Source of the DNA: Zanthoxylum bungeanum
Lineage: Eukaryota; Streptophyta; Magnoliopsida; Sapindales; Rutaceae
DNA: 64,000 bases
Direction of reading: 5' to 3'
NCBI GenBank assembly: GCA_019454045.1
Contig: SKCR01038158.1
Location: forward strand, 214,570 to 278,569
The notes beneath the pieces are model-generated. The model ran no database searches. It was given only the letters and a program-made list of their open reading frames with translations, and was not told where the DNA came from. The translations under genes were made by a program, and so were the position numbers. Within the stretch, counting starts at the first letter, position 1; every line of letters starts with the position of its first letter. Of the stretch, positions 25,208 to 56,735 are shown in pieces.

Positions 25208-25858
25208 TTAAAGGTTAAGATCCAGATTAACATGACGCCTCTTACCACGATCGTCCTCAGGCCAATTTATCTTTGAAAGGATAGGGTCAACTTGTGGTTC
25301 ATAGGCTAAGAGTTGGTCTATAGATCTGGAGCAGTTCTGGCAGTAAAAAGGAGTTCTTTAAAAGGTTTTGACACGAACCCATTTCTCCGGGCATCATCAA
25401 GAAACACACAAAGAAAAATAAAATCCATCAACATTAAACAGCCCAATTGGTTTTTGGTGTATGTTCAGGTTCGCCCAAGATAGCACAATAAAAATTTCCT
25501 CCAGTGTACCCAAGCCACCTGGCAAAGCAATAAAAGCATCAGCACGGTTAATCATTTCTACCAATCGTTCAGACATACCTGGCACGATCAGTTCCTCTCC
25601 GTTTGATGGTCCAATAAGATTTGCCTCCGCCAAGGGTTTTGGGATGATTCCCAAAACGTGACTGCCTCATTCCTGTACGGCCTTTGAAACGATCCCCATA
25701 AGTCCAAGATTACCCCCGCCATATATTAAGTGCATATTCCTTGCAACTATGACTCGACCCAATTCTTGTGCTGCTTCTACGTATTGTGGCTTAGTACCAA
25801 CACTACTACCTCAAAACACACAGATGTTTTCAACTTGTCTTCTCGAAGTGGCTTCCAT
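25208..25858 (-). pseudogene. LOG-type cytokinin riboside monophosphate phosphoribohydrolase, broken copy in G1
   Basis: Intronless LOG homologue starting MEATSRRQVENICVF. Recognisable motifs: [10 protein letters not shown], the Rossmann-type GIIPK segment, GMSERL and the family signature PGGLGTLEE. Two in-frame TGA codons (one replacing the cysteine of the usual CFCGS, one after AVQE) and two frameshifts near 25400 and 25310 inactivate it. The C-terminus is still readable in one frame as KRRHVNLDLNL before TAA. This is a basic patch plus a textbook LxLxL (EAR) motif. LOG enzymes release active cytokinin bases from their nucleoside monophosphates. Sense orientation within G1. Confidence 0.88.
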
Positions 25859-26759: not shown

Positions 26760-27545
26760 CGAGTGCTAAGTTTAAAGTTGTTAGCCAGACGTGACTGCCT
26801 GAACGTTATGCTGGATCTAAAAGTGTGACACTTTCTTTTTGTCGCTCAAATGATTCTCCCCAGTAGTGCTTGACACGCTGACTGTTAACCTTGAATTTGT
26901 TGTTGGTATTGGGATCCAGTAACTCAACGCTCCATAAGGTAAAACCTGAGTGATCACAAATGGACCTGACTACGTAGATTTCAACTTTCCAGGATAAAGT
27001 TTCAACTTCGAGTTGTACAACAACACCTGCTGCCTTGGTTCCAACTGTCTGTGCACTATTTTTCGGTCATGCCATTTTTTGGTCTTTTCCTTGTACAATT
27101 TGGCATTCTCATAAGCCTGTAGGTGAAATTCCTCCAATTCGTTGAGTTGGTGAAGTCTTTTATCTCATGCAGCTTGTGAATCAAAATTCAACTTCTTCAG
27201 TGCCCAGTACGCCTTGTGCTCAAGCTCAACTGGCAGATGGCATGCTTTCCCAAACACCAATCGATATGGGGACATACCAATTGGTGTCTTGTAAGCTGTC
27301 TGGTAGGCCCATAATGCATCATCTAGTTTTGTAGACCAGTCCTTCCTTGTTGATCCAACAGTTCTCTCCAAGATTCTTTTGATCTCCCTGTTTGAAACCT
27401 CAACATGTCAATTTGATTGTGGATGGTAAGTTGTGGCAACCTTGTGAGTAACTCCGTATTTGGATAGGAGTGCATCAAAGTATCTATTACAGAAATGTGA
27501 ACCACCATCGCTGATGATTGCCCGAGGTGTTCCGAAGTGAGTGAA
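26760..27545 (-). pseudogene. G1 Athila integrase, core C-terminal half and tail
   Basis: Starts at the G2 insertion point, in frame with sequence at 35580. Core motifs THFGTPRAIISDGGSHFCN and TTYHPQSN are followed by a stop near 27416. Homology continues through [30 protein letters not shown] and [13 protein letters not shown], a typical Athila stretch. The C-terminal region near 26930-26860 has GPFVI and NSQRVKHYWG. Frame breaks and stops occur. It would insert the cDNA into host chromosomes. Confidence 0.88.
27541..27545. repeat. Target-site duplication (left) of G2
   Basis: gtgaa, identical to 35580-35584. Confidence 0.93.
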
Positions 27546-30935: not shown

Positions 30936-31595
30936 CTACCGATTAAGATCTATGTCCAGTTTACGCTTCTTACCACAATCGTTGTCTGTCCAGTCCAACT
31001 TGGAGAGAATGGGATCGAGTTTTGGTTCAAAGGCTATGATTTGGTCAATTAATTCTTCGGCCTTTGTCGCAGTCAGGAAGATATCATGTACTGATTTCGT
31101 GACGAACTCATGTCTTTTGGCTTCTGCAAGAAATACAAACAGAAAATCGAAGAAATGCTCAATGTTAAGTAACCCAATGGGCTTCCGATGAATATTTAAG
31201 TGCGCCCATGATGCTACTGTAAACATTTCCTCAAACGTCCCAAGCCCTCCTGGTAACGCAATAAACGCATCTGCAGTATTGATCATTTCATGAATTTGTT
31301 CGGGGTATTCCAGATACGATGCGTTCATCTCCATTTGTTTTTGTCCGATTAAGTGTTCGTCCGCCAAAGGTTTTGGAATGATTCCCAAAACATGACCGCC
31401 ACCATCCTGTACAGCTTTTGATACTTCCCATCAATCCAAGATTGCCACCACCGCCATATACCAGTGCATATTTCGCTCCGCTATGACTCGCCCCAATTCC
31501 TTTGCTGCCTCGATGAATTCTATTTATTACCAGAATTGGATCCACAGAAAACACAAATACGCTTGATTGATTCGCTGCTGTGAATTTGCTTCCAT
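30936..31595 (-). pseudogene. LOG-type gene, broken copy in G2
   Basis: Starts MEANSQQRI and then carries frame breaks and a stop in the first ~70 codons, so the N-terminal Rossmann region is lost. From 31388 it is open for 150 codons: [45 protein letters not shown] and a C-terminus KKRKLDIDLNR before TAG. The last leucine of the EAR-like tail is arginine here. Intronless, sense orientation, with its own TATAAAT box. Closest in the window to the intact copy at 48686-49339. Loss of the N-terminal nucleotide-binding half makes activity unlikely. Confidence 0.9.
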
Positions 31596-31654
31596 TTTCT
31601 CTCTCTTATTTGGATGTGTATTTAGATGTGTCGAAGAGAGAAATGACGAGCTGA

Positions 31655-31661
31655 ATTTATA
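31655..31661 (-). promoter_or_regulatory. TATA box of the G2 LOG copy
   Basis: TATAAAT on the minus strand, 60 bp before the LOG ATG at 31595. Confidence 0.6.
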
Positions 31662-32994: not shown

Positions 32995-32999
32995 CTAAT

Positions 33000-33511
33000 T
33001 GAGCTTCCCGTTCTACGAGCCAATCTTTAAGCATGTGAATCTTTGATGGTTCTGATTGTTGATGAAATCATAGGTAGATGGTGGATAAGATGAAAAATGT
33101 GGTTCTGTGAAATGTGATGGCTCGTCATACCATGAAGGATCTTGATAGCTCTGCCACCCTAAACGGTATATACATTGATCGCTCGGGTGGTTACCATCAC
33201 AATATCATACATCTCCCCATCTCGTTCTGTGAGCAAATGTGGTATTGCTTGGTTCTGGCATCCAGTAAAATTGTTGGGCTGGACAACAGGCCTCAGAAAA
33301 CCGGACTGTTGCTCCCAGATGTGGGGTGTATCTTCTTGTAAAGCTCGTAATCTTTCAATCTCCCAGTAGTGTTCCATTTTTTTTTAATCACCTGAAAAAG
33401 AAAGAAATAAAAATTACAGATAAAATAAAGAAAATTAGATACAAATAAATTAGATAGCTTCAAAATTAACAACTCAAGAAATATAAGTCCCCGGCAACGG
33501 CGCCAAAAACT
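33000..33511 (-). other. G2 5' leader with short ORF and primer binding site
   Basis: Element-sense PBS TTTGGCGCCGTTGCCGGGGA at about 33488-33508 directly follows the 5' LTR. It is the classical Athila-type primer site. A 72-codon open stretch at 33159-33377 (starts MEHYWEIERLRALQED) may be the start of an eroded gag-like ORF. Confidence 0.7.
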
Positions 33512-35973: not shown

Positions 35974-36480
35974 TCATCTCAATAATTGATCAACACACAC
36001 CCGTTTGAACAGGTACAGCTCATCCCAGACATAATGCTTGACTTTTTTGAAGAACTTCTTCCGTTGCTGAGTTGTCCATTCCAACGGCCATTTTCCTGAC
36101 ACAATGTAGTTGACATAGTCAGCATACCAAAGGACTTCCTGTTGTTTCATGGCAAACAGCTGTTCATCTGGAAAAGTTTCTTTGATTGACAGATCTTTGT
36201 CAGCTGTTTCTCCATTCTCGAGCCTCGATAGATGATCTGCTACCTGATTCTCTGTCCATTTCCTGTCTCGAATCTCCACGTCAAATTCTTGTAGAAGAAG
36301 TATCCAACGGATCAATCTGGGTTTGGCATCCTTCTTCATGATCAAGTATTTGATTGCTGAATGATCTGTGTAGACCACCACTTTGGGACCCAGCAGATAG
36401 GAGCGGAATTTGTCAAAAGCATATACAACTGCAAGCAACTCCTTTTTAGTGGTTGTGTAGTTGAGTTGAGCTTCATTCAG
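35974..36480 (-). pseudogene. G1 RNase H domain
   Basis: Open for 154 codons from an internal ATG. It has [42 protein letters not shown] and [11 protein letters not shown], i.e. the RT-linked RNase H of Ty3/gypsy elements. It degrades the RNA of the RNA:DNA hybrid. A frame change near 36480 separates it from RT. Confidence 0.9.
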
Positions 36481-37579
36481 AGTTCTGCTGGAGTAGTAAA
36501 TGGTGTGAAAAATCTTTGCTTTGCGTGTGTCCCAAAACTGCTCCTACAGAAAAATCACTAGCATCACACATTACCTCAAATGGAATGGTCCAGTCTGGTG
36601 CTACAATGATGGGGGCAGAAACCAGCTTCTGTTTTAAGATCTCAAAAGCTTTCTGACATTCTTTGGTGAAGTTGAAAGGCACATCTTTCTCTAGAAGATT
36701 GCAAAGAGGTTTTGCAATTTTGGAAAAGTCTTTCATAAATCTCCTGTAAAAACCTGCATGTCCAAGAAAACTTCGAATACCTTTTACTGATGTTGGTGGA
36801 GGTAGTTTTTCAATTGTCTCTATCTTTGCTTTGTCAACCTCAATCCCCTTTTGTGAGATCCGGTGTCCAAGAACAATGCCTTTTTGTACCATAAAGTGGC
36901 ATTTCTCCCGGTTGAGTACCAGGTTTGTATCTTCGTACCTTTGTAACACCTGTTCCAAATTTTGCAAACAATGGTCAAAAGAATCTCCAAACACAGAAAA
37001 GTCATCCATGAAAACCTCCATACTCTGCTCCAGCATGTCTGAGAAGATGGCCATCATGCAACGCTGGAATGTGGCATGGGCATTACATAATCCAAATGGC
37101 ATCCTGCGGAAAGCAAAAGTACCATAGGGACATGTAAATGTGGTTTTCTCTTGATCTTCTGGTGCGATGGGAATTTGATTGTACCCTGAATATCCATCCA
37201 GAAAGCAATAGAACTCATGTCCTGCCAGTCTGTCCAACATCTGGTCAATGAATGGTAGCGGAAATTGATCCTTCCTCGTGGCTTTGTTCAGCTTCCTGTA
37301 GTCCATGCATACTCTCCATCTAGTCACCGTTCTTGTTGGGATTAGCTCGTTCTTTTCATTGGTAACCACAGTAATTCCTTATTTCTTCGGCACACACTGC
37401 ATAGGACTTACCCAACTGCTGTCTGAGATGGGGTAAATGATGCCAGCATCTAACCATTTGATGATTTCTTTCTTCACGACTTCCTTCATGATTGGATTGA
37501 GTCTCCGTTGATGTTCCACTGTGGGTTTGTACTCATCGTTCATCAGGATCTTGTGCATGAAAAATGATGGACTAATGCC
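36473..37579 (-). pseudogene. G1 reverse transcriptase, Athila type
   Basis: Contains RVCMDYRKLNKATRKDQFPLP, FCFLDGYSGYNQIPI-like sequence, the catalytic FMDDFSVFG and GHRISQKGIEVD, in the order expected for a gypsy RT. A TAA near 37380, just after the PKK of the N-terminal palm, and the frameshift toward RNase H inactivate it. The protein would copy the element RNA into DNA. It lies directly downstream of protease in element sense. Confidence 0.92.
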
Positions 37580-38450
37580 TCAAATGTCTGCTATAGTCCA
37601 GCCAATGGCTTTCTTATGCTCTCGTAACACTCTCAGTAGCTTTTCTTCCTGCTCCAATGTTAGTGAAGAAGAAATAATAATAGGTAATTCAGAAGAGTTT
37701 CCAAGAAAAGCATACCTGAGATGACTCGGAAGTAACTTCAGCTCCAGCTGTGGTGGTTCTTCAATCGAAGGCTTGATTCGATCTTTCTTTGGCAGTTCCA
37801 AGCTTTCAACTGGTGGTGTTGCTTTGAATCGGAATGGTTTGTCAAGGTAGTTGATACATTCTAGGATTTCATCATCTAGCTCGCTGTCAGTCATGTTGGT
37901 GATGCAAGCTTCAAGTGTATCTGTGGGATTTGGCTCAGTATCCTGAATGATACTGTCAACAACATATACTCTGAAGCATTCTTCTTCCTTATCATCACCC
38001 GGGAATTTCATGGCTTTGAAAACATTAAAGGTCACTTCTTGGTCCTGTACTTTCATGGTCAGTTCTCTTTTTTGCACATCAATCACAGTTTTACCTGTAG
38101 CCAAGAATGGTCTCCCAAGAATGATAGGTATTTCTTTGTCTTCTTCCATATCAAGGATGATGAAATCTGCGGGGAGAATTAGTTTGTCTACTTTGACCAG
38201 CACATGTTCAACAACACCTCTTGGAAATGCGAGTGTTCGGTCAACAAGTTGCAATGAAACTGAGGTAGGCATTGCTTCTCCAATCTGCAGTTTCCTGTAA
38301 ATAGAAAAAAGCATCAAGTTAACACTGGCTCCTAAATCACATAAAGCCTTACCTATGTAATGTTCTCCAATGGTGCATGGGACAGTGAAACTGTCAGGAT
38401 CTTTCAACTTCGGGGGAAGTTTCCTCTGAATGATGGCACTTCATTCTTCC
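37580..38450 (-). pseudogene. G1 aspartic protease region
   Basis: Translation shows GEHYIGKALCDLGASVNLM, where the Athila-type catalytic D-x-G-A-S is present. ILGRPFLATGKTVIDV follows. A long acidic linker continues toward RT. A stop near 38440 and breaks upstream separate it from gag. Protease would cut the polyprotein. Confidence 0.88.
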
Positions 38451-38914
38451 GTTAATGCTACTGTTTCGTAGTCTCCCAATCTCCGTTTTCGTGAAAGAAC
38501 GTCTTTCATGAATTTGACATAACTGGGCATTTCTTCCAAGGCTTCTACAAATGGAATGTTGATGTGAAGCTTTTTGAACACCTCCAGGAATCGAGCAAAC
38601 TACTTGTCCAGTTTGTTTTTCTGAAGTCGTTGAGGAAAATGTGGAGGTGGAATGATCTGTTCTTTTTCTTTTGCTTTTTTTTCCTCCATATGTGGAACTG
38701 CATCTGTTGGAACTTCTTCTTGGGACACCTTGATTCCAACATCTTTGTTGATTTCAATACCGCTTTTCAAAGTAATGGCTTGACATTGCTCCTTCCCTCG
38801 GTTCCTTGGATTGGGTTCTGTGTTGCTGGGAAGATTACCTGGTGGTCTGTAACTCTGAGCATTGGCCAGTTGTCCGATTTGATTCTCCAGTGCTTTGATG
38901 GAAGCTGATTGACT

Positions 38915-39750
38915 CTAAAAGATATCATCGTACTTTTTTAACTGAGCCAGCACTTCTGCTATTCCTGGTTCTCTATTCTGTTGCTGGAATCCAGGTGGTG
39001 GATAGTTCTGTTGTTGGCTTGAATTGTTGCTCCATGAAAATTTAGGATGATTCCTCCACCCTGGGTTGTAGGTGTTGGAATAAGGATTGTTCCCATGTCT
39101 GTTGAAATTGTTGACATAATTCACCGTCTCTTCAAGTTGGTTTGACTCTGGTGCTCCTCCATATGGTGAACTTGTGGATCCAGTGGTAAGAGTCTCCATG
39201 AATTTGCATATCTGATCTAGCTTGGCGTTGACTGCTGTATTGGCTCCACTTTCATAAATTCCTGCAATTCTTTGGATCATGCTCCTTTCTGTTGGCCACA
39301 AGGAATTGTTGTTGGCCATTTCTTCGATTAGGTCCCAGGCTTGATCTTCTCTTTTTGCCATTAAAGCTCCTCCAGCAGCAGCATCAATTGTGGTTCTCAT
39401 TATTCCAGAAAGTCCATTATAGAATGTTTGGACTTGTAGCCATTTTGGAATCTCATGGTGAGGACATTTCCGGAGCAAATCTTTGTACCTTTCCCAAGCT
39501 TCGTAGAGAGTTTCTGAGTCTTGTTGCACAAAGGATGTGATGTCATTCCTCAGCTTTCCAGTTCTGGCTGGTGGAAAATACTTTGCAAGAAATTTGGTGG
39601 CTAAAGTGTTCCAAGTTGTGATGGAACCAGCTGGTAGTGAATGTAGCCAAGCTTTTGCTCTGTCCTTCAAGGAGTATGGGAAAACACGCAGTCTCATTGC
39701 TTCTTCAGCTTCTCGGTTGTAATTGAAAGTGCCGCAAACTTCCAGGAAGT
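38915..39750 (-). pseudogene. G1 gag, N-terminally truncated
   Basis: Open for 260 codons from MRLRVFPYSLKDRAKAW. Signature LHSLPAGSITTWNTLATKFLAKYFP is the Ty3/gypsy capsid core. The start of gag, the leader, the PBS and 77 bp of LTR are missing, because at 39751 the sequence passes directly into the LTR interior. The stop at 38915 is followed by degraded sequence toward protease (38450-38914). Confidence 0.9.
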
Positions 39751-41877
39751 CTTAATATCTAAACTATTAATTTTATGAGGTCAAATGATTACTAGCATCT
39801 AACAGGTTGTTTGATTGATTTGAAATGGTGACGATTCTAAATTTAAAAAAAAGTAAATAAAATTATTCGAAAGTAGATTTTAAGAAAATTCAATATTAAA
39901 AACTATCTAGGGTTGTGATTTCTTCAAATATCATTTTAAAGATGAAGTGGTTATTTTAAAGTTGGGTAATATATTGATTTATTAACCTGGAACACTAAAT
40001 TATGTGTAAGCTTCTGTCGATGGTCAGACACAAATACCCAGTTTAACCCAATTGAACCATATGTCTATGTCAACCAAATTATCTGGATTCATTAAGTTTA
40101 GGTTCCAATTATGGCTACCCCCGCCCGACAGGTATATATCAATCCTGTAAGGAAATCTATTAAAGAGTTATCTATCCTCAAGGAAGATCGTGGGCTATTG
40201 AGTCTAAGGTCTTAAACTTAAAATCTCTATGTCTAGTTCATTTTAAGTTTCCCAGTTCAATTTTATTAATGACCAGTTAATGAAAAAAGCATTAAGATTA
40301 AGACTCAATAAATAAATCTTTATAATACCCAAACTATAATCTAACCTCTTATAAACCGGTGATATTAAAAGTCATCACAACCCCAGATAACTAATTTAGT
40401 TATAACACATAACTAGGGCTAGTAAAAACTTGAAAATAAAATACATAAAGTAAAAATGCGGTAAAGTAAATACTGAAAAGTAAATTACAATAAAATAAAA
40501 TGCTAAGGTAAAATGAATTACTTTTACTACTACTAATTTAGATATCTCCCATAATATAATATATAAACTTGTGATAACATTACCAACCAGCCATATAGGC
40601 GGTATCATGATTAAGTCAAATTAAGTCCAATCAGCCATTAAGGCGGTAAAAAAGATTTGTCCATGAACCTACCATATAGGCGGTAAGAAAGTTTAATTAC
40701 CAACTGACCAATTTGGCGGTATCCTTGATTAGTCAGGTTTAAACCAGATTAAAATGAATTACCAACCGACCAATCTGGCGGTATCCTTTTTAAGTCAATA
40801 TTTTAAATAGTGAATATATTATATTTAAGGGAGATTAATCTAAATAGCAATAGTAAAAGAATTACCTTTCACCTTAGCTGGGGAAGTTACCTCCTCATGG
40901 TGAATAGTAAAAACTGTAAAAAGTAAGAAAGTAAATTACTATTATTACAAAAAGTAATTAAAATTTAATTACAAAACTAAAATTAAAAGAAACTAGAGAG
41001 AGAAACTCCATATTTACATCAAAGAAATGAGAGAGAATGGTACATCTAAAACTGAAATTTCGCGCTCTATTTATAGGCATCAGTAAGGGTCGCGCGTCGC
41101 GACGCCCGTTTTGGTCGACGTGGCAGCTTTTGGTTCGTCGAGTGAGATTCTGGATAAGGTGATAAGGTGACACGTGGCAAGGTTGTTGGAGACTCAATTA
41201 TTGTTACACGTGGCGGCTTCTGATTGGTCGGCTAGATTCTTATCCGCCACATTTCATATAGGGATAAGAGAGCCAATAATTGATGCTGACGTGGCACTGA
41301 AGTGGCGGTGACGTGGCACTGACGTTGCGGTGACGTGGTAGTGATGTGGCAACACGTGGTAAAGTGCCTGTCGGTACCATAGAATTACGACACGTGGCAC
41401 TTCCTGATTGGCTGATGATGACGTGGCGGTGAGGTGGCATGTTGACTCGGTCAACTGATGATGTGGATGATGATGTGGCTGACAGGTGGAGTGACACGTG
41501 GTGGCATGTGGCGATGGTGACTGTCGGCACCGTAGGATGATGACACGTGGCACAACGCATGTTAGCAGATCAGCTGTGATGGTGACACGTGGCATGGCGC
41601 ACGTTAGCAAAGTCAAATTTTCTCAGATTCTGAACCGTTGACCTGGCGCATGTTAGCAGCTCTGGTGCATGTTACGCGTCGCGACGCGCCCAAATTACCA
41701 AAATGCCCTTTTTTGTCAATTTTCAAAGTTTTGCTCCAAATCACCTCCAGAATGTCTTGAAACTTTATTTATCTACAAAATAACACAAAACACATCAAAA
41801 TATTCACAAAACTCAAGAAACTATACCAAATATTAGGTTAAATGAGTGGGAAATAGTGATAGATTTACCACTCATCA
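39751..41877 (-). repeat. G1 5' LTR, missing its inner 77 bp
   Basis: Aligns with 21771-23879. The part equivalent to 21694-21770 is absent. Ends CCACTCATCA directly before agggt. ABRE-like cluster at about 41118-41596 and TATA box at 41069-41075. Confidence 0.9.
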
Positions 41878-44026: not shown

Positions 44027-44031
44027 CCAGT
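44027..44031. repeat. Target-site duplication (left) of G3
   Basis: ccagt; the same five bases follow the last LTR at 54982-54986 and precede the LTR at 53212. Confidence 0.88.
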
Positions 44032-45800
44032 TGTAGACAACAGAAACTGACGACGCTGTTCTAGGCTCGCGGCCTAGTTGAGAAGTACGAAATAACATGG
44101 AGTCGCCACCCGGTGTGAGCCGGGAAAATGAGATTTAAGGCCGCACTCACCCCTCGCAAGAGAAGACCTCAAACCTTTGGGTTCGGAATGGTCTCTTACT
44201 TTATGTCATCTTGTAATGTTTGTGATTTGTGCAATATTAATCAAAACTACTTAACATACATGTATAATGATAATTCAACCTAATTCACATTCATAAAAAT
44301 AAATCTTACATTTAAATTTACATGCTTCGAAAATGAGTTTTCATAACATAACAAATACAAAATAAACATGTGGGCCAGTAACTTGGCCACTATTAATGTA
44401 GGACCTCGCATACCTGATTAGACGTATCTGATGTCAACCGAATACGCCGCGTCCGTAACAGTAAAGTAACAAAGGGTGCCCTCAGGTCTTACCTTTTAGT
44501 CGCTGTCCGGGAGTGCGTTCTGCGGTGCCGGAAGGGGTTATCATTCCACTGTTCTCACTGATGCGATTTTTCCGCTGTTTTGTCCGGGTTCGCCGTTTTC
44601 AATATTTTGTCCGTTTTCAACGGATCCGCTGTTTCTGCCGTTTTCACTGTTTTCACCCGCGGTAACAGTTTACCGTTTTATCTGTATTCTCACAGTTTCA
44701 ACTCGCCGTTTTTGCCGTTTCACTCGTTATTTCCACTCATGATTTTTCTGTACTTTTCTGTTATTTTCACTCGCTGTTTTCTCTCTTTTTCAACTCAAAT
44801 TCTCTTTCTCTCTCTTGGTTATTTTGGTCATGGTTTTGGGAATTAGGGTTTGCGGGCAGTTTGTTCGTGGGTTGCCGAGAGGAGATGGTGGAGAGCTAGG
44901 GTTTATTCATGTGCATGGTTTACTCACGTGAAACAGTGGGGGTGTTGCATGGCTCTCGGCAAGGGGAATTTAGATTGAGGGTTACATGAAGCTTGGAGGT
45001 TGGTCTCGGCTGGATGGCTAGGGCAGTGAGTGTGCTCGGTTTGGTGAAGAGCTAGTTGGTTTGTGTGCGGTGAGGTGTAGGCAGAGAGGTGTGGGACTGG
45101 TTCAGTGCATGAGCTGCTGTGTGTTTGATGGTGTTAGGGGCTGCCGAGAGTCGTGAAGCTTGCTGAGTGAGGGGTCAGGTTGTGTTTCTGATGATTGTGT
45201 CTTTGTGAGTGGCTTTTTGGGGGTTTATTCAAAATAGCTTAAGACAGTATGTAAGGGCTATTGGAGTGAAGGTTTATTAGCTGATCTTGCCCTTGGCCAA
45301 ATGATGATCTTGGGTGTGGATGATCAAAGTCCTCAAGCTGTGAAGATTAGTGGTGATGGTCGGTCTGAAGCATGGGAGTTGTGGGCTTGTTATTATTTGG
45401 TTTGTATTTTTTATTTATGTTTGGTGGAATTATTTGTTATTTTTGTTAAAGTTGTTATTTAATTGGTTTGTATTTTTTAATGGTTTAATTTAATTCAAAT
45501 TAATTTAAGTGGTTGGTAGATTTTAATTTTGCATGGAAGTTAAAGGGTCACAAGCAAGGAAAATTAGAGAGAGAGAATATGTGTGAGAAAGAGCGAGGAA
45601 AAGGTTCCGAGCGAAGGATGATTCTGAAATGGAAAAGGCGACGACGAACCCGAAGCAAACGAGCGAATAAAATCCATAAAACGTCAATTCTTGACTTTCC
45701 CTTTCCGACGACCGCTTTCCGCGACTTCCACGACATGAAAACGTAGTGCCTCTTTACGAGGCTCGTCATTGGGCTGGTATGCAAAAATGCAATGCCTACA
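44032..45800 (-). repeat. G3 3' LTR (1769 bp)
   Basis: TGTAGAC..GCCTACA; next to the polypurine tract. Almost identical to 53212-54981 (differences include one base near 44660 and two near 45680-45715). Open stretches inside (e.g. 45513-45746) recur in the other copy and look non-genic. Confidence 0.9.
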
Positions 45801-45815
45801 GTCGCCCCCACTTTG
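45801..45815 (-). other. G3 polypurine tract
   Basis: Element sense CAAAGTGGGGGCGAC directly before TGTAGGCATTG of the LTR. Confidence 0.75.
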
Positions 45816-45944
45816 ATGGGATTTGTTCAGTGTGTGCCAGTGACAATCCTATCAAAGTTCGTGCAATGTATTTTTACTCACCTGGTTCGCCAGCTGCCAC
45901 CTGGCTTACCTGCTGCTTCGAACTGAGTTGATGATGCAGTGGAC

Positions 45945-46566
45945 CTCGATCCTGGGATGCATCCCAATACCTGCAATTGACAAAATGGGCCTCGGCCCGG
46001 GGACGCATCCCCAAAATGGAATCTATGATCCAGTGGGTCTACGACCCTGGGACGCATCCCAATAACTGCAACTGACAACGGGGGCCTCGACCCTGGGACG
46101 CATCCCAATACCGCTGACAAAATGGGCCTCAGCCCGGGGACGCATCCCCAAAATGGAATATATAATGCAGTGGGTCTACGACCCTGGGACGCATCCCAAT
46201 AACTGCAACCGACAACGGGGGCCTCGACCCTAGGACGCATCCCAATGTCGTTGTCAAAATGGGCCTCAGCCCGGGGACGCATCCCCAAAATGGAATATAT
46301 AATGCAGTGGGTCTACAACCCTGGGACGCATCCCAATAACTGCAAATGACAACGGGGGCCTCGACCCTGGGACGCATCCCAATGCCGTTGTCAAAATGGG
46401 CCTCAGCCCGGGGACGCATCCCCAAAATGGAATATATAATGTAGTGGGTCTACGACCCTGGGACGCATCCCAATAACTGCAAACGACAACGGGGGCCTCG
46501 ACCCTGGGACGCATCCCAATGCCGTTGTCAAAATGGGCCTCAGCCCGGGGACGCATCCCCAAAACA
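45945..46566 (-). repeat. Tandem repeat, 137-bp unit, about 4.5 copies
   Basis: Copies begin near 45990, 46127, 46264 and 46401 with gcctcagcccggggacgcatcc. Each unit contains three versions of gggacgcatccc, an imperfect palindrome. Reading frames through the array repeat the same peptide and are not taken as genes. Confidence 0.9.
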
Positions 46567-46639
46567 TTGTTGATAATTGAGAATTGAGTTGGTCGTGCCG
46601 TACCTGGCAGATCTGATCTGATACCGAATTGTGGGGTTC

Positions 46640-47390
46640 GTCTTCATGGGTCATGTTCCCGAATCTGATGTGAAGGTCTTGTTCCCTGAATTGTGTCAAG
46701 ATAGGGCTTTATTCCCCTGGGCTTTCTTCCCGAACTGTGTTGAGATGGGGCTTTCTTCCCCTGGGCTTTGTTCCCGAACTGTTTTGAGTTGGGGCTTTAT
46801 TCCCCTGGGCGTTGTTCCCGAACTATTGAGATGAGGCTTTATTCCTCCGAGCATCGTTCCCGAACTGTGTTCATATGAGGCTTTATTCCTCCTGAGCTTT
46901 ATTCCCGAACTGTGTAGATGAGGTTTTATTCCTCGAGCTTCATTCCCGAATTGTTGAGATGAGGCTTTATTCCTCCCGAGCTTTATTCCCGAACTGATGA
47001 GAGATAAGGCTCTATTCCCCTAGGCTTTCTTCCTTCAATTATGTTGACCGTGGGCTTTGTTCCCTGACTGTGTTAACTGTGGGCTTTGTCCTTGAACTGT
47101 ACTGAATGTGGGCTTTATTCCCGAACTGTATTGGATGTAGGCTTTCTTCATGAACTGAACTGGATGCAGGCTTTATTCCTGAACTGTACTGAATGTGGGC
47201 TTTATTCCTGAGCTGAACTGAATATAGGCTTTCTTCCTGGACTGAGCTGAATATAGGCTTTATTCCCGTACTGAGCTGAATGCAGGCTTTCTTCCTGAAC
47301 TGAACTGGATGCAGGCTTTATTCCTGAATTGTATTGACTGTGGGCTTTGTTCCCTGATCTGAGCTAATTGTGTGGCTTTAGCCTCTCAAG
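46640..47390 (-). repeat. Degenerate short tandem repeats, about 35-50 bp
   Basis: About 18 variants of ggctttattcccgaactg, progressively diverging from left to right. They follow the 137-bp array within G3. Confidence 0.75.
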
Positions 47391-47720
47391 CTGATACTGA
47401 TGAAGTGGGTTACAACCCTGGGACGCATCCCTCAAAACTGTGTTGATGCTGATGTGGGCCTCGACCCTGTGCCTCGTCCAAAAAACTGATACTGTAACAG
47501 ATGTGGGCCTCGGCCCTGTGACTCATCTCTGAAAACTGATGCTGAAGCTGATGTGGGCCTCGGCCTTGGGACTCATCCCTGAAAATGATATAGATATGGG
47601 CATCGCCCCAAACTGATACTGATGTGGGCCTCGGCCCTGGGACTCATCCCCAAACTGATGCTGAAATTGACATGGGCCTCGCCCCCAAGCTGATATGAGG
47701 CCTCGCCCCTAAGCTGACAT
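47391..47720 (-). repeat. Tandem repeats with gatgtgggcctcggccctggg units
   Basis: Seven or so units of about 45-60 bp containing gggcctcg and gggactcatccc, related to the motif of the 137-bp array. Confidence 0.75.
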
Positions 47721-48685
47721 GATATTCTATTTCACACATTACATCACTTCTCACGAGATAATCTTTGATATATAGACATATCTTATCCTCAACGAATGCT
47801 TTCGCGTTGAAACCGAAGAACCTTCAAAGTACTCGACATACTCAAACCCAATCATCTGAACGGGTGATCTGAGCTAGACCCCATGTGTGTGTGTGCCAAG
47901 GCTCTTTCGCAGCTTAGTCCTTAAGTAAGCCAACTTGGTGATTTCGTTTCAGAGAATCGAACCAGTGGGTCTAACCAACCTGGATGTCTTAATCACATCC
48001 TGTGATTACTTCAGCATACTCAACATGATATGGTTTTCATTTTTTTTTCTTTTGTCTCTTTCTTTTCATTTTCTCTTTTTTTTCAATTTTTTTCTTTTTC
48101 TTTTTCTTTTTTCTTTCTTTCTTTTTTTTTTTTTTTTTTTTTTTTGACACACCTACCCTTTAAGGTAGCATTTCTCCTCATGGTGGTCCTAATACTCGCC
48201 CATGGGTAGCTTCACGCTTATCGGTTATAGGCGGTCTATTTTTTTTTTTTCGGAGAGACTTTTTCTTCGTTTCCAACCATATCATATATCGTAGCATCAG
48301 TAAACCAGGGTGGAAATCCAGGCAAACGGTCATTCACTGATCCACTATCTCTTCAACTAGTCACCTCGATAACTACTCAGGTTTCTACTGCTAGGATTCT
48401 GTAATCAAGTGCTCGTGAGTCTAACTGAGATCAATCCATTCAGGATATCGGAAGAGAGCGTGTCTCGTACTTATCGTTTCTAGGGTTTCCCCCTACAGCA
48501 TTCAATGTCATCACCGGACATATGTCTAACTATCAAAGATTTCTCTCACTCATATTTTTTTTTCTTTTTCATTTTCATTTTTTTTTTTCATTTTTTTTCA
48601 TTTTTTTTTAATAATTAAAATAGAACACAAACTTTCAAACTTTTAAATAGGTCTCATGCATGTAGTACCTGGTCAGCAGGAAACA
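47721..48685 (-). other. G3 non-coding stretch before LOG, with long T/C runs
   Basis: Low-complexity T-rich segments at 48030-48150 and 48540-48615; no gene seen. Just after the LOG stop (element sense) lies a conserved ACCAGGTAC that also follows the other two LOG copies. Confidence 0.6.
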
Positions 48686-49339
48686 TCACAGATTCAGATC
48701 AATGCCCAATTTGCGCTTCCTGCCACGATCACTATCCGTCCAATCCAATTTGGAGATGATGGGGTCGAGCTTCGGTTCAAATGCTAGGATCTGATCAATC
48801 AGCTCTTCGACATTTGTTGCAGTCAAGAAAATGTCTTCCACAGATTTGGTGACGAATTCGTGTCTCTTGGCTTCCGCAAGAAACACAAACAGGAAATCGA
48901 AGAAGTGCTCAACATTAAGCAGCCCAATGGGCTTCCGGTGAATGTTCAGGTGTGCCCATGACGCCACTGTAAATATTTCTTCGAATGTGCCAAGTCCACC
49001 TGGTAATGCAATGAACGCATCTGCAGTATTAATCATTTCATGGAGTCGTTCAGACATACCTGATACAATGCGCTCGTCTCCATTTGTTGGCCCGATTAAC
49101 TGTTCATCTGCCAAAGGTCTCGGGATGATTCCCAAAACATGACCGCCACCATCTTGAACGGCTTTTGAAACAGCTCCCATCATTCCCAGATTACCACCGC
49201 CATATACCAAGTGTATGTTTTTCGCAGCCATGACTCGCCCCAATTCCTTAGCAGCTTCCAAGAATTTAGGTATGTTACCAGGGTTAGATCCACAGAAGAC
49301 ACAAATTTTCTTGAATCGTTGCTGTGAGGTTGCTTCCAT
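48686..49339 (-). CDS. Intact intronless LOG-type cytokinin riboside 5'-monophosphate phosphoribohydrolase carried by G3
   Basis: 217 codons, MEATSQQRFKKICVFCGS to a TGA stop, without interruption. LOG enzymes hydrolyse cytokinin nucleoside monophosphates to active cytokinin base plus ribose 5-phosphate. Motifs: CGS at 16-18, YGGGNLGMMG at 46-55, GIIPRPL at 70-76, SGMSERLHEM at 93-102 with the conserved arginine (98), and PGGLGTFEE at 113-121 with the conserved glutamates. Length fits the family. Plant LOG genes normally have several introns and this has none, which suggests capture through an RNA intermediate. The tail differs from LOGs I know: GRKRK (206-210) followed by IDLNL (213-217), a basic patch and EAR-like motif. 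A TATAAAT box lies 60 bp upstream. Activity and expression are unknown. Confidence 0.92.
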   Translation of the reverse strand: MEATSQQRFKKICVFCGSNPGNIPKFLEAAKELGRVMAAKNIHLVYGGGNLGMMGAVSKAVQDGGGHVLGIIPRPLADEQLIGPTNGDERIVSGMSERLHEMINTADAFIALPGGLGTFEEIFTVASWAHLNIHRKPIGLLNVEHFFDFLFVFLAEAKRHEFVTKSVEDIFLTATNVEELIDQILAFEPKLDPIISKLDWTDSDRGRKRKLGIDLNL

Positions 49340-49398
49340 TTTTTTCTCTTACTTTGGATATATGGCTGATCGTGTTGAGGAGAGCAATGCCGAGCTGA

Positions 49399-49405
49399 AT
49401 TTATA
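49399..49405 (-). promoter_or_regulatory. TATA box of the G3 LOG gene
   Basis: Minus strand TATAAAT within CCTATAAATTCAGC, 60 bp before the ATG at 49339. The same box and spacing precede the LOG copies of G1 and G2, so it is probably part of the captured cassette. Confidence 0.65.
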
Positions 49406-49870
49406 GGACCTGCAAAAGAGGTGAACAATAATTGCAATAACGATGGTTAGCTAAACCACAAAATGAGTCGTCAGAAGTCAAAAAGGTTACTGGATCCTGT
49501 CTGCGAAAACAACAAGAGAAAATCGTGAGATGTCAAAAAGTTGTGGATTCGTTCCACGAAAATAACAGGAAATAACAAAGGAGATCGTGATATGTCAAAA
49601 AGATGTGGATTCTTTCAACGAAAATAACAGAAAATACCAAAAGAAGTCCTAAAATGTCAAAAAGTTGTGGATCCCTTCCACCTCAACATGTCATGAAAGG
49701 TCCCAAAAGTTGTAGATTCTGTTCAATACGTTGCTCGCTTGGTATAAATTCATTAAGGTGTGTCTGATGAATTCTTTCCTTACTCTGTCACCACTAATGA
49801 ATTAGCTCCCATCTTTGTGATCGCCAAGCACCATTCCCTCTGTCTTAAAATGCTATGTCTTCGCCTTTAC
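49406..49870 (-). other. G3 segment upstream of LOG with three short direct repeats and an eroded NABP-like tail
   Basis: A ~60-bp phrase (atgtcaaaaag..tgtgga..cgaaaataac) recurs at about 49530, 49590 and 49650. The stretch 49725-49860 resembles the C-terminal coding part of the NABP-like ORF of G1, with no open frame. Confidence 0.6.
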
Positions 49871-50320
49871 CTACCAAAATAACACAAAATTAGAAATTCC
49901 ACATAAACACGAAACAGAAATCACAGCAACTTGCATAGGCTGCCTCCCTGTTAGTGTCAACTTCATTGTCTTCAGCCAGACATGACCGAAGTTCTTCTGT
50001 CAGTGTGGCATCACCTCGTCTTTAGTGTTTGCCGCTTTTGATCTTTGCTGCTTTCCTTGCTTCGCCTTTGCTTTTTCCTGCAAAAATAACACAAAATTAG
50101 AAATTCCATAAAACATAAAACAGAAATCACAGCAAATTGCATATGTTGCTTCCCTTTCAGCATTAATTTCATCATCTTCAGCCAGACATGACCGAAATTC
50201 TTCTGTCAGTGTGGCTTCACCGTCGTCTTTTTGTGCTCGCCGTTTTTTTATTTTTATTTTTGCTGCTTTCTTTTCTTTCTCTCTTTCTTTTTTTTCTTTA
50301 AACCTGCAAATACAAAACAA
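49871..50320 (-). repeat. Tandemly duplicated post-integrase block in G3
   Basis: Two ~165-bp copies (about 49871-50035 and 50078-50240) with ataacacaaaattagaaattcca and agccagacatgaccgaa; each matches the single copies in G1 and G2. An open stretch at 50000-50320 rich in Lys/Glu arises from it and is not called as a gene. Confidence 0.75.
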
Positions 50321-50479
50321 CAGAATAAATACGTGTGCATGTAAGTATGCAAGTGTAGAGATACTCCCTTTTCGTGATGGGTTGGATCCTCATTGTGCTC
50401 CTCGGCGCCATATGTCCCCGGTCGCCCCTTGATGGTTCCCATCTGTTTGAAATCTGTAAAAACAAAACACAAAACAAGA

Positions 50480-50765
50480 ATGCAAGTTACGTGTATGCAT
50501 GTATGTATTTCCTATCCTGTTGGGTTAGGTCTTCCGCCTGTTCCCTCGGTGACCGCTCAATTCTTTTTTTTCCAGCAAAGTGCAGTTTCAATCTGCTTAC
50601 GTCGACCGACTTGGTGAATTCCTCATTTCCCAAATCTAGTAGTCTCATTGCCTTGTTTCCCAATCTTCTGTCTTTTCTGCTTATTTCTTCTGAGAATTCT
50701 CCATGTTTCAGATACCTCTGAACATCATAATACCAAGGCCTTCTGTCATCGGCTTCCACATCCGA
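50480..50765 (-). pseudogene. G3 pol fragment (RNase H/integrase junction type)
   Basis: A 90-codon open stretch beginning MEADDRRPWYYDVQRYL and continuing through HGEFSEEISRKDRR. A WYYDI-type motif followed by a K/R-rich helix is typical of the segment before the integrase zinc finger in Tat-type gypsy elements. RT, protease and integrase core are missing. It marks G3 as a deletion derivative of a pol-bearing ancestor. Confidence 0.5.
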
Positions 50766-51811
50766 TATCTCTCATGTCTCATACACCGGCTTGCTTGCAG
50801 TTGTCAGCACAAGTGGTCCCATCACCAATTTCTCTGGATTTTCTCAAGCCGCAGCTAGTGTCACCAATGTGTCAGTCATCTGATTTTTTCCGACAAGTGC
50901 TGAAATCTAAAGTCAGAGATTTTATGTGCCAGACTTCTGAGGTAGAACAACAATTATCCCTTTAACTCTTATTCGCATTGCATCTTCAGTTTTTCAAACA
51001 TCTTTTGACAACGGTTTACTCAAACTGGAGAGTTGTCTGTTTCTGATAGGAGAAGTCTTTGAGGAAGTAGACTCGGTCTTTGAAGGTTTCCCAATGATCT
51101 TTTCATTCTGGTTGCACAAGTCTCTGTTACTAGCTGTATATGGCACGGTCAAACTGGTCACATCATTGTTCAGGACTTGCAACTGCTCAAAATCTCAGCT
51201 ATCTTGGCTTCCAATTGATCCAGGCGGGATTCTTCGTTGACTGCCTCACTTATTCTGGTTGACGATTCTTTTGACGGATCTTTCTTCTTTCCTAATCCAA
51301 CGGGAGTCTACTATGGCTTTTAAGACAAAAAGGGTTAACATGATGCGTGTATGCGTGACATGATGTATGATGTAAACCTATTCAAAAATAATTTACACTA
51401 ATTGGCTCGTTATCATTTTAAAGTATTCAATCACACTATTGCGCAATGCAAACTTGTCCCAGTTGAAAAGGCCCAACAAGTTTACACTTTTGCGATAACA
51501 CGGCTAAATAACTTCAAATGATAAAAGGCCCAAAAACAAACTGGCCCATCGGCATTTCAGAAATTTCGGCCTAATTGTCAAAAGGACATGAACTTGTCCC
51601 GGTTTAAACGACAACGAGTTCATATCTTTTAACAAAGAGTCCAAATAAATCCAAATGACAACAGTCCAAAACACAAACATAAACACAAATGACAACAATC
51701 TAAAACACAAGCATAAACACAGTAGTCATGATTAATTAAAACAAAAATCACAAACATTACAAGATATCATTTCGGAGCCAATTCTCTATATCCCCAGTGG
51801 AGTCGCCAGAC
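50766..51811 (-). other. G3 5' internal region: gag N-terminal trace, leader and primer binding site
   Basis: A stretch near 51300-51185 translates to ESRLDQLEAKIAEIL, a coiled-coil-like gag start. 51182-50994 is open without known domain. PBS TGGCGACTCCACTGGGGA lies at 51791-51808. No intact gene. Confidence 0.5.
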
Positions 51812-52153
51812 TGTAGGACACAGAAACTGGACGACGCTGTTCTAGGCTCGCGGCCTAGTTGAGAAGTACGAAATAACATGGAGTAGCCACCCGGTGTGAG
51901 CCGGGAAAATGAGATTTAAGGCCGCACTCACCCCTCGCAAGAGAAGACCTCAAACCTTTGGGTTCGGAATGGTCTCTTACTTTATGTCATCTTGTAATGT
52001 TTGTGATTTGTGCAATATTAATCAAAACTACTTAACATACATGTACAATGATAATTCAACCTAATTCACATTCATAAAAATAAATCTTACATTTAAATTT
52101 ACATGCTTCGAAAATGAGTTTTCATAACATAACAAATACAAAAATAAACATGT
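51812..52153 (-). repeat. G3 5' LTR, truncated to ~340 bp
   Basis: Begins TGTAGGACACAG next to the PBS and follows the LTR sequence to aaacatgt. It then switches to C2 internal sequence equivalent to 42970 onward. The join has only ~3 bp of shared sequence (tgt). Confidence 0.88.
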
Positions 52154-53211
52154 ATATTTTATGAACGATTCATAACGAAAGCTTAATCAAGTTTAAAACT
52201 TGATCGTAGTAAGCCATGAACAATCTTAGATCTATGGTGCAATGCTAAGTTCCGGAATCGATATCAAATATCACTCCCACTATAAGTTATAGGATAATTT
52301 TCTTCGATAAGAAAACAGTAGAACCAATAAGTATCAAATACTTCGCAAACGATTCTGACATCCTTTTGAACTTATACGGAAGTTGTCTAAGGGTCTTTTC
52401 ATCTTATTAATTATGTAATTCCATTACAGTTTATCATTCTCAAATTTGACTTCAATAAGTCAAATCTTTTCTGCAATCGTCAACATCCAATGTTAACCAC
52501 CAAGTAACAAAACAATTTTATTACTCGGGATCGTAGAAAAGATATTATATCAAATAGAATACAATATTCTATTAAATAGAATAAATGATAAACCTTACTT
52601 GTACCTCCATGGCACAAGTACTTTCAATTATATAACAATTATACAAAAGAAAGTTTCAAATCTCAAACTTTTCAAGATTTAAATTTTCTACTATACATAT
52701 CATATATGTAACTGTAGAATCAAATGGAACCTAAATTACAGAGATGAATAAGTTTTACTGGAGCATAACCCCAAGAGTATTGAAAACCAATTCGGTAACA
52801 CTCAATATCAACGAATCAAATCATATAAGATTCAATTACTCCCACTGACCAATTCCATCAAAATGGAATCGCAGAAGTTTAATATTGAGTAAGAATCATA
52901 TTCATTAAATAACTCTACAACTAATTGCCTTAAATTCATGTGTTTGATCATATCAAACATCTTCGAACAATTCAAAGACTCATAATGAATTTTATAGTTT
53001 CAATACTTCAAATAGAATATCTTTGAACCATTCAAAATATTATATCCACGTTTCATCAGAAATATATTGAAAGTTCTCGAACCATTCAAGACGTTCAATA
53101 TATATTCTTTTAGAAACTCGTAACTAAGTCATGACAAATCATTAACAAAGTTATGGAATAAAGAAAACTATCTAAGGCAATTTCAAATTCATTAAACTAC
53201 ATACAGCCAGT
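52151..53211 (-). repeat. Duplicated C2 internal segment (copy of 42970-44031)
   Basis: 1061 bp nearly identical to 42970-44031 (a few substitutions, one 1-bp deletion). It includes the ccagt target site and runs straight into another full G3 LTR. Confidence 0.92.
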
Positions 53212-54981
53212 TGTAGACAACAGAAACTGACGACGCTGTTCTAGGCTCGCGGCCTAGTTGAGAAGTACGAAATAACATGGAGTCGCCACCCGGTGTGAGC
53301 CGGGAAAATGAGATTTAAGGCCGCACTCACCCCTCGCAAGAGAAGACCTCAAACCTTTGGGTTCGGAATGGTCTCTTACTTTATGTCATCTTGTAATGTT
53401 TGTGATTTGTGCAATATTATCAAAACTACTTAACATACATGTATAATGATAATTCAACCTAATTCACATTCATAAAAATAAATCTTACATTTAAATTTAC
53501 ATGCTTCGAAAATGAGTTTTCATAACATAACAAATACAAAAATAAACATGTGGGCCAGTAACTTGGCCACTATTAATGTAGGACCTCGCATACCTGATTA
53601 GACGTATCTGATGTCAACCGAATACGCCGCGTCCGTAACAGTAAAGTAACAAAGGGTGCCCTCAGGTCTTACCTTTTAGTCGCTGTCCGGGAGTGCGTTC
53701 TGCGGTGCCGGAAGGGGTTATCATTCCACTGTTCTCACTGATGCGATTTTTCCGCTGTTTTGTCCGGGTTCGCCGTTTTCAATATTTTGTCCGTTTTCAA
53801 CGGATCCGCTGTTTCTGCCGTTTTCACTGTTTTCACACCGCGGTAACAGTTTACCGTTTTATCTGTATTCTCACAGTTTCAACTCGCCGTTTTTGCCGTT
53901 TCACTCGTTATTTCCACTCATGATTTTTCTGTACTTTTCTGTTATTTTCACTCGCTGTTTTCTCTCTTTTTCAACTCAAATTCTCTTTCTCTCTCTTGGT
54001 TATTTTGGTCATGGTTTTGGGAATTAGGGTTTGCGGGCAGTTTGTTCGTGGGTTGCCGAGAGGAGATGGTGGAGAGCTAGGGTTTATTCATGTGCATGGT
54101 TTACTCACGTGAAACAGTGGGGGTGTTGCATGGCTCTCGGCAAGGGGAATTTAGATTGAGGGTTACATGAAGCTTGGAGGTTGGTCTCGGCTGGATGGCT
54201 AGGGCAGTGAGTGTGCTCGGTTTGGTGAAGAGCTAGTTGGTTTGTGTGCGGTGAGGTGTAGGCAGAGAGGTGTGGGACTGGTTCAGTGCATGAGCTGCTG
54301 TGTGTTTGATGGTGTTAGGGGCTGCCGAGAGTCGTGAAGCTTGCTGAGTGAGGGGTCAGGTTGTGTTTCTGATGATTGTGTCTTTGTGAGTGGCTTTTTG
54401 GGGGTTTATTCAAAATAGCTTAAGACAGTATGTAAGGGCTATTGGAGTGAAGGTTTATTAGCTGATCTTGCCCTTGGCCAAATGATGATCTTGGGTGTGG
54501 ATGATCAAAGTCCTCAAGCTGTGAAGATTAGTGGTGATGGTCGGTCTGAAGCATGGGAGTTGTGGGCTTGTTATTATTTGGTTTGTATTTTTTATTTATG
54601 TTTGGTGGAATTATTTGTTATTTTTGTTAAAGTTGTTATTTAATTGGTTTGTATTTTTTAATGGTTTAATTTAATTCAAATTAATTTAAGTGGTTGGTAG
54701 ATTTTAATTTTGCATGGAAGTTAAAGGGTCACAAGCAAGGAAAATTAGAGAGAGAGAATATGTGTGAGAAAGAGCGAGGAAAAGGTTCCGAGCGAAGGAT
54801 GATTCTGAAATGGAAAAGGCGACGACGAACCCGAAGCAAACGAGCGAATAAAATCCACAAAACGTCAATTCTTGACTTTCCCTTTCCGACGGCCGCTTTC
54901 CGCGACTTCCACGACATGAAAACGTAGTGCCTCTTTACGAGGCTCGTCATTGGGCTGGTATGCAAAAATGCAATGCCTACA
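53212..54981 (-). repeat. Additional full G3 LTR (1770 bp), outermost right copy
   Basis: Nearly identical to 44032-45800. Flanked by ccagt on both sides (53207-53211 and 54982-54986), so by itself it looks like a solo LTR. Confidence 0.9.
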
Positions 54982-56735
54982 CCAGTGTATCACTTTAATG
55001 AATCCGTAGTCCAATGACAATCATGGTTAAATGAGATTTAATCTCATCCTGAATATATTCATTAAATGGATAAGGATATATGGTGTGAATTTGTATCAGA
55101 CCATCCTTTACCATACGGTACAAGTATCCAATGCTTTTATGTGATAAAATCTCATAAAACATCGTTCTAAGTTATTTATTATATCGAATATTTTTCTTAA
55201 TGCTTATCTTTCATTAATGACACTACTAGTCGTCTTAAAATATGTAACAATTGTTTTTACAGAACAAGTAACTATCCAATAGTCACAAGTTCTAATATCA
55301 AATATCAAAACAGTTATTGAGCATTATTTTAAATAACTAGACGGGAGATCCGGTATCCAATACCTATAATTGTCGTATTGTGAGAATCAAAATTCTCTAT
55401 ACACAACTATACACATCTCATTTCTTAAGCTTTACAATTTGCGTTCAATTATTCACAATAATTGTAAATGATTGATTAGCAAACTGTGTCAGACACGTGA
55501 CTTCTAAAAGTCACTAAAGCCAAGAAACGTCATTATAAGATAAACAAATACTAATGAGGTTTTCTTAAAGTCAGTCAAGAATCTCGAGACATGAACCGAT
55601 TCGTGTCAATTCTCACTGCATAAGAAACTAATCTTACTAGATTACTATATCCAAAACAGATATCTATTTAGATTACTAATCGTGACTTAGTAACTAAGTC
55701 ACAAACCATCTTGATTTTCAAGAAAATCGGAATATTAGTTCCTGATGGTTTGAACTAATCTAATAATATCTAAGTCTACTGTCTTTCTAGAACCTATTGT
55801 AGAACTACGCAACCATAACTAAAGTCAGAAAATATATATATAAGAAATATAAATGCAGTGGATTAGAAGTATAAATCTATAAACAATATAGAAGAAAGGA
55901 AAACAAAGCAGAATTTTCCAAAATATTACACACTTATTAAGTTATGGATTTTAAACTCAGCAGTGTCTCTCACTACTTTACGTAATACGGTAATCTTTAA
56001 TGGACAACAGAAATTCAATAATTAAATTGAATTCCATAAAGAGAGTAGGATCCCATGAATATATTTCGACTCACAGCTTTGACACGATCTCGCCTACGTA
56101 TATTCATTAGGTAGACAACTCATTGTCAATCACTCACCAGTGACTCCTGGTTTTGGTCCTGATCGTTTCTCGTTATGACAGCTTTGGCACGTTCACAAGG
56201 AGGCGTATCAAGGCTACAATTGTCAATGACAAACTCAAGCTACCGATGTAGTCCTGACAACTTTGGCATGTTCAGGATTTCCACTTTCACTTGAATTTGT
56301 CCAGTATCAATATACAACCGGTATGGATAATAATTCTATAACCTACACCCTCATAGCTTTGGCACGATCTTGGATGCAGTTATAGAAAGATACCTATAAA
56401 CCGTACTAACAAGACAGACCAAGAAACATGTATCCAATACATGTTACTTTACAACCATATTTAAAAGCGGGGATTTTCCTCTGGAAGCTATAATCTACAT
56501 CAAATGCAGAATTTTAATCTAAATCATTTTCTAAACATTCCAATTCTACCTTAGAAAACATAACACAATTTAACTATTAAATTTCAGTTACATTTCTGTT
56601 AGTGTTGAACCGAAAAGTAAAGAAACATATATATATTCCAAGCATGTGCGAACATTAAAATTGGATTAAATATCAAATTTCAAGCATGAATAATGTAATG
56701 GATGAAGCATCAGACTCGTTCTGATACCATTTTTT
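54982..56735 (-). other. C2 5' internal region with primer binding site and repeated ttggcacg motif
   Basis: No gene recognised. Minus-sense TGGTATCAG (56721-56729) is the initiator-tRNA-Met type PBS of C2, next to the LTR. Between about 56075 and 56370 the phrase gctttggcacgatc or a close variant occurs four times. Confidence 0.65.

Follow-up and report, generated by a model that had tools for sequence, protein, structure and literature searches.

Plant retrotransposons carry extra open reading frames (ORFs), mostly of unknown use. Such extra ORFs are most often located between pol and the 3' LTR (PMC7264820). Ty3/gypsy consensuses from Citrus sinensis, C. clementina and Populus trichocarpa have been reported to contain a YgdH/LOG domain, and Ty3/gypsy elements of Phalaenopsis an m6A-demethylase (2-ODD) domain (PMC9289625, citing Steinbauerova et al. 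2011). In Arabidopsis, non-autonomous Athila elements have selected gag/env ORFs and include recombinant lineages (PMC2410132). Here we describe a 64,000-nucleotide stretch of the Zanthoxylum bungeanum genome (contig SKCR01038158.1; hereafter the window), in which an intact LOG ORF lies inside an LTR retrotransposon, G3. This ORF has likely served for a long time as an accessory gene of a Ty3/gypsy lineage of OTA type, and is neither a recent capture nor a host gene; OTA type here means relatives of Athila and Tat, labels that we base on the type of primer-binding site (PBS).

The ORF occupies positions 48686..49339 on the minus strand and comprises 217 codons and a stop, without an intron, while the opposite (plus) strand of the same interval contains seven stops. 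Its 217-residue product carries the sequence PGGLGTFEE and matches both the Pfam profile PF03641 (1.5e-34, 119.4 bits against a cut-off of 27) and TIGR00730 (5.5e-47, 159.8 bits against a curated cut-off of 96.35). The features of the LOG/TIGR00730 family, PGGxGTxxE and the catalytic Arg and Glu, are all present, and the best solved relative is At2g37210 from Arabidopsis (6.3e-55). NF058542, the cytokinin-specific equivalog of NCBIfam, gave 113.9 bits against a cut-off of 300, on a scale where an Arabidopsis-type cellular LOG (P0122) itself reached only 132.4 bits. In viral contigs, 18 pattern matches were obtained, and tblastn identified none of the 18 as a relative.

G3 and the ORF share the same orientation, and G3 has the hallmarks of an LTR retrotransposon: LTRs with TG...CA ends, a 5-bp target site duplication (TSD), a PBS and a polypurine tract (PPT). 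The 3' LTR (44032..45800, minus strand) pairs with an outer, 5'-side LTR (53212..54981, minus strand) at 99.72% identity, with two mismatches and three gaps over 1772 aligned positions. The TSD, CCAGT, flanks the element on the left (44027..44031) and on the right (54982..54986). A purine-rich tract, the PPT, adjoins the 3' LTR (45801..45825, minus strand), and the PBS, TGGCGACTCCACTGGGGA (51791..51808, minus strand), is located three bases from an LTR end. We take this PBS to be tRNA-Arg-like; the exact motif was found in 18 of 20 long copies (L009-L028). Between the PBS and the ORF is a leader of ~2.45 kb with no recognisable gene (49340..51790, minus strand), and the 3' internal region (45826..47720, minus strand) contains tandem arrays with registers of 137 bp x 4 and 29 bp x 10. 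These arrays lie at 45941-47390, and the 137-bp array looks longer in copy L010 (7709-9596). The 5' side of G3 is rearranged (51812..53206, minus strand), running from the PBS to an LTR remnant of ~340 bp, then to a duplicate of ~1.06 kb of the left flank detected by BLAST, and then to the outer LTR. The 1.06-kb flank at 42970-44026 thus recurs, with part of the LTR, at 52151-53206, an arrangement suggestive of either unequal recombination or a template switch. Because of this rearrangement, the identity of the two LTRs may date the rearrangement rather than the insertion.

A preliminary description of this locus, made from the sequence of the window, had placed an intact, intronless 217-codon LOG ORF with PGGxGTxxE in sense orientation within G3, in an element without complete gag or pol. 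Our reading of the ORF and the profile matches agree with this, and a Pfam scan of the internal frames detected neither gag nor pol. The same description called the ORF the only intact one in G3. It is the only recognisable gene there; besides it, 45801-51811 contains four stop-to-stop frames with 120 residues or more, none with a Pfam match. Nine of the 20 long copies L009-L028 supplied nine longer non-LOG frames, which likewise had no Pfam match.

Two further LOG copies are found in the window, both broken. One, frameshifted (30936..31595, minus strand), is inside the element G2 (27546-35579), which has LTRs 98.9% identical and a PBS, TGGCGCCGTTGCCGGGGA, that we assume to match tRNA-Asp, as is typical of Athila. 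G2 and G3 are ~75-78% identical across the ORF and across portions of the leader. The other copy, with stops and frameshifts (25208..25858, minus strand), is located behind the integrase fragments of G1 (21694-41877), the element within which G2 is nested. Fragments of gag, a protease-like domain, reverse transcriptase (RT) and RNase H remain in G1 at 35977..39751 on the minus strand (PF03732, PF08284, PF00078 and PF17917/PF17919), the protease-like PF08284 match scoring 19.9 bits, below its cut-off of 20.3. Integrase-region fragments (26809..27545, minus strand) are on the LOG side of the nested G2; one of the three pieces scanned matches PF00665 (rve), and the frame of that piece continues into G2. 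The order in G1 is gag, sub-threshold protease, RT/RNase H, integrase fragments, LOG and 3' LTR. Elsewhere in the window, self-BLAST revealed a near-repeat array (6936-8646), both strands of which hold several long open frames that overlap. Ty1/copia-type fragments are present at 17165-18517, with gag-pre-integrase above its cut-off and the integrase core and Pol_BBD below theirs, and 2.5-kb direct repeats, 93.6% identical, are found at 18833-21353 and 56736-59264.

A search of the host genome for other copies of the ORF found many, in at least two subfamilies. An identical LOG ORF is present on contig C21737, in an element 99.94% identical to that in the window over 10 kb, and a 751-bp stretch of C21737 outside the element is 98.9% identical to the window flank, so the 3.96-Gb assembly seems to hold both haplotypes at the G3 locus. 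Most host LOG last exons are also present two or three times in the assembly, and the copy counts given here are counts of places, not of independent insertions. Two protein queries were used, and since each list consists of the best-scoring rows, the fractions of stop-free copies, 147/150 for the window protein (best 150 of 67,888 candidates scored, window and allele included) and 145/150 for Arabidopsis LOG3 (best 150 of 57,849 scored), are biased upwards. Within these best 150, matches to the window protein are 88-100% identical and mostly full-length. The best 150 for LOG3, which are intronless, full-length and 49-52% identical to the query, represent a second subfamily, and all 12 of the places that we read have 217 open codons. 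The two lists should be disjoint because the window protein scores ~190 bits against At2g37210, and the weakest row in the second list scores 205.

For a sample chosen independently of the ORF, we used 401 bp of the leader as the query; the best 40 of 1,612 candidates were scored, leaving 38 after removal of the window and its allele, and the 20 highest by leader similarity were taken (L029-L048). Eight of these 20 are open over at least 214 codons (L030, L031, L032, L034, L036, L039, L041 and L045, of which L039 has no ATG and L036 has a 6-base in-frame deletion), and stops or frameshifts disrupt the remaining 12. The many genomic copies rule out a single-copy host gene into which repeats were inserted. 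One of the long copies, L028, contains a tandem duplication with two open LOG ORFs 2 kb apart, the repeats being 99.4% identical.

How are these ORFs related to the LOG genes of the host itself? Using as the query a LOG C-terminus that is absent from the element LOGs, we found 14 host LOG places in the assembly and read seven. All seven are multi-exon, as judged by split tblastn matches, and where their ends are covered they lack the basic cluster and LxLxL tail described below. The window ORF has none of the features of a host cellular LOG gene, which would be multi-exon, low-copy and placed within the cellular group. One of the host LOGs is closest to proteins from Citrus (93%), Pistacia and Xanthoceras (91% each) and Acer (90%), all of which are Sapindales. 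In a tree of 30 rows, a single branch with 93/93 support separates 17 element-type rows from 12 plant cellular rows, which include the seven host genes, stitched from tblastn pieces, as well as a gymnosperm and monocots; the paralogs sampled are of the LOG1/3/8 types, and the single bacterial row does not place the root. The best 120 database relatives of the window protein include named proteins from Xanthoceras, Reevesia, Diplodiscus and Populus, and some of the Reevesia and Xanthoceras clusters have 20-39 member sequences. When 103 rows, the window included, were set against 19 sampled LOG3-type rows, one branch again separated them (SH-aLRT 92). By their sequences, the relatives from several rosid orders form one group. 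Close relatives with names such as 'LOGL10' in Populus are also an annotation trap, as they may inflate counts of LOG genes.

The preliminary description had suggested a recent capture, in which the mRNA of a host LOG gene would have been taken up by the element. The intronless ORF would agree with such an event, and an origin by reverse transcription at some time is compatible with it. However, the window protein is only 42-43% identical to the five cellular LOGs aligned with it, and it groups with relatives from other plants, in a group common to several rosids and apart from all seven multi-exon host genes read. The ORF is also multicopy, with at least two subfamilies. Judged against those seven host genes, a recent capture is rejected, and we regard it as extremely improbable.

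Selection on the ORF, which the preliminary description had offered as the other possibility, was examined in 30 open ORFs: 21 ranked by protein similarity, eight ascertained by leader and the window, with L044 among them, whose N-terminus is clipped and which is classed as broken in the count of 8/20 against 12/20. The ratio of mean dN to mean dS among these ORFs is 0.51 at dS<0.02, 0.23-0.25 at dS 0.02-0.08, 0.18 at dS 0.08-0.12 and 0.10-0.17 at dS>0.12. For leader-ascertained pairs, broken copies included, the ratio is 0.52 and then 0.45 in the lowest two dS bins and 0.18-0.29 in all higher ones; it stays near 0.2-0.3 at high dS, which counts against the reading that we favour. The averages are 0.26 for broken-broken, 0.22 for mixed and 0.13 for open-open pairs. 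A codon model gave an omega of 0.263 for the 30 open ORFs (2dlnL against omega=1 of 119), 0.257 for nine sequences comprising the window and eight leader-ascertained copies (89), 0.167 for 12 ORFs of the second subfamily (157) and 0.395 for 21 sequences including broken ones (100), values for which the omega=1 fit used a coarse kappa grid and the trees of recombining copies are approximate. Pairwise, the ratio in the second subfamily is 0.172 (66 pairs). Mismatches also fall unevenly over the codon phases of the ORF, at 278/181/847 for L029-L048 and 97/60/282 for L010-L028; the corresponding counts in the leader are 81/88/112 and 123/155/238, so the leader shows some codon-phase excess of its own in L010-L028. 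The PF03641 match, the dN/dS among copies and this phase bias of the mismatches rule out a chance ORF. Purifying selection is seen between diverged copies and its relaxation between near-identical ones, a pattern that fits a gene selected during transposition and drifting after insertion.

The LOG gene is found in two chassis, one of Athila type, behind gag/pol remnants, and one without gag/pol and with a tRNA-Arg-like PBS, both of them backbones in which little or nothing of gag-pol is left. L068, the 4-kb stretch upstream of a second-subfamily copy, has the PBS TGGCGCCGTTGCCGGGGA and a gag match; where it matches G1, the protease region (37943) is followed directly by the C-terminal region of integrase (27165), and it therefore lacks RT and RNase H. 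L069, upstream of a copy of a third lineage, has a tRNA-Arg-like PBS and no match to the gag-pol of G1. Priming by tRNA-Arg and tRNA-Asp, among others, is described for non-chromoviral elements (PMC6317226). A limited search found no autonomous helper for the tRNA-Arg-like chassis.

Divergence from the window, followed in 60-bp windows, jumps in 17 of the 20 leader-ascertained copies. The leader of these copies is 90-100% identical and the ORF falls to 73-83%, with the jump in the first 60-bp window behind the ATG in 10 copies and in the second in 7. L029, L030 and L032 show no such jump, and in L047 and L048 the identity climbs again within the ORF. From these breakpoints, the ORF is best read as a cassette that has been exchanged between backbones. 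If cassettes recombine, autonomous relatives may be where some of the selection took place, and any tree-based omega can only be approximate. A rival reading confines selection on LOG to autonomous relatives of Athila type: gag/pol-less elements would acquire the gene through recombination and multiply without making use of it. In favour of this are the jump in divergence, at the ATG or shortly behind, and the position of LOG behind gag-pol in G1. Against it, within the gag/pol-less type, comparison of copies between groups A1 and A2 gave a pN/pS of 0.131 at a pS of 0.129 (121 pairs), the A1 group being 11 copies of which L030 and L032 are covered over the leader and ORF only. Within groups (55 pairs each) the ratio is 0.131 for A2 and 0.370 for A1, the higher A1 value speaking against the reading that we favour. 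Selected ORFs have, moreover, been reported in pol-less Athila elements of Arabidopsis (PMC2410132), and we consider such passive carriage of LOG unlikely. The proposal that the ORF is under selection is thus supported by pairwise ratios, by the codon model and by A1 x A2, and the many copies maintained by selection suggest that the elements use the LOG protein and did not pick it up by accident.

What, then, might the protein do? Across 103 proteins, the window included, PGG is conserved in 103/103, the Glu of the motif in 101/103 and the Arg in 93/103, and where plant LOGs have a Lys directly behind this catalytic residue, most of these proteins have Leu, Met or Ile. One reading is that element RNA would be translated into a LOG-fold enzyme that releases the active cytokinin base from its riboside monophosphate, and that the released cytokinin would keep the cell dividing or meristem-like, so that further copies arise and enter the germ line. 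We see the chances of such a cytokinin-releasing role as evenly balanced. SLOG-type related proteins act on or bind varied nucleotides, and the selected activity might be some other nucleotide reaction, either supplying the nucleotide pool for reverse transcription or removing a nucleotide defence signal. The poorly kept Lys beside the catalytic Arg is in line with this; so is rice LOGL5/GY3, a family member with another activity (PMC12066119), and given such members cytokinin activation by the element LOG is not guaranteed. However, PGGxGTxxE and the catalytic Arg and Glu, common to characterised LOGs (PMC6864091), are retained, and a different nucleotide reaction is a tentative alternative that we hold to be rather unlikely.

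The C-terminus of the window protein, GRKRKLGIDLNL (minus-strand ORF 48686..49339), has a basic cluster and an LxLxL-like motif, which at the level of motifs we take to be NLS- and EAR-like. Both are present in 79/104 relatives of 190-260 residues, the window included, versus 0/178 cellular LOG1/LOG3-type proteins, one of which has a basic cluster. LxLxL by itself occurs in 83/101 relatives that retain the C-terminus and in 0/178 of the same cellular proteins; when the last 20 residues were shuffled in 1000 rounds, it turned up in 7.5 relatives on average and never in more than 15. A run of at least three basic residues is found at the tail of 41/42 open ORFs from the host genome, and eight Xanthoceras-side rows of the tree have the basic cluster without LxLxL. 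The tail has a pN/pS of 0.35 versus 0.15 for the core in the A/B/C set, and of 0.20 versus 0.19 in the second subfamily. Such a tail could bring the enzyme into the nucleus and let it bind TOPLESS-type corepressors, unlike plant LOGs, which are described as cytosolic (PMC12066119); we put the likelihood of this at somewhat below even. The excess of LxLxL over the shuffled and cellular proteins could also mean that the protein is mainly a nuclear scaffold that binds or titrates TOPLESS corepressors, weakening silencing or defence, with catalysis secondary. The nearly invariant active site argues against this, as does the weaker constraint on the tail than on the core in one set, and a scaffold would be read from one short motif; we consider it quite doubtful.

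Returning to an enzyme that the elements themselves use, the steps above could be combined into a selfish 'meristem drive', in which the lineage's own nuclear, corepressor-coupled cytokinin enzyme biases cells to dividing and germ-line fates, and which even gag/pol-less members must encode. As a whole this is speculative, and we judge it very unlikely to hold in every part. LOG is a real accessory gene of this retrotransposon lineage, and apparently one under selection; its part in hormone release, its nuclear location and its value to the element are inferred. The accessory ORF here is of a recognised hormone-pathway enzyme type, is stop-free in hundreds of matches and is selected even without gag/pol, which makes the role of retrotransposon accessory genes directly testable.

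Among titles and the opening lines of abstracts, a coverage with most subscription papers outside it, we recognised no study of how a retrotransposon LOG is selected or what it does. The occurrence of the domain in Ty3/gypsy elements is already published. The YgdH elements of Citrus and Populus likewise have a LOG-type domain within Ty3/gypsy LTR retrotransposons, and are treated in a short passage of a domain screen of RT-centred consensuses, whose available text uses the word YgdH twice and the words 'purifying' and 'non-autonomous' nowhere (PMC9289625). Beyond that report, the present locus and its relatives provide a chassis lacking gag and pol, a large number of copies without stops, purifying selection as measured here, an apparent exchange of cassettes and the C-terminal tail. 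The pol-less Athila elements of Arabidopsis have also retained an ORF under selection and originate through recombination, but theirs is gag or env, whereas the ORF here encodes an enzyme of a host-metabolism type (PMC2410132). In the 2-ODD elements of Phalaenopsis, as here, a cellular-type enzyme domain has become fixed in a retrotransposon lineage, although the enzyme is a different one and the available text places it in one orchid genus. Finally, the cellular LOG1/LOG3 proteins of plants, such as At2g37210, belong to the same protein family and share PGGxGTxxE, but the host genes that we read are multi-exon and without the basic and LxLxL tail, while the element LOG is intronless.
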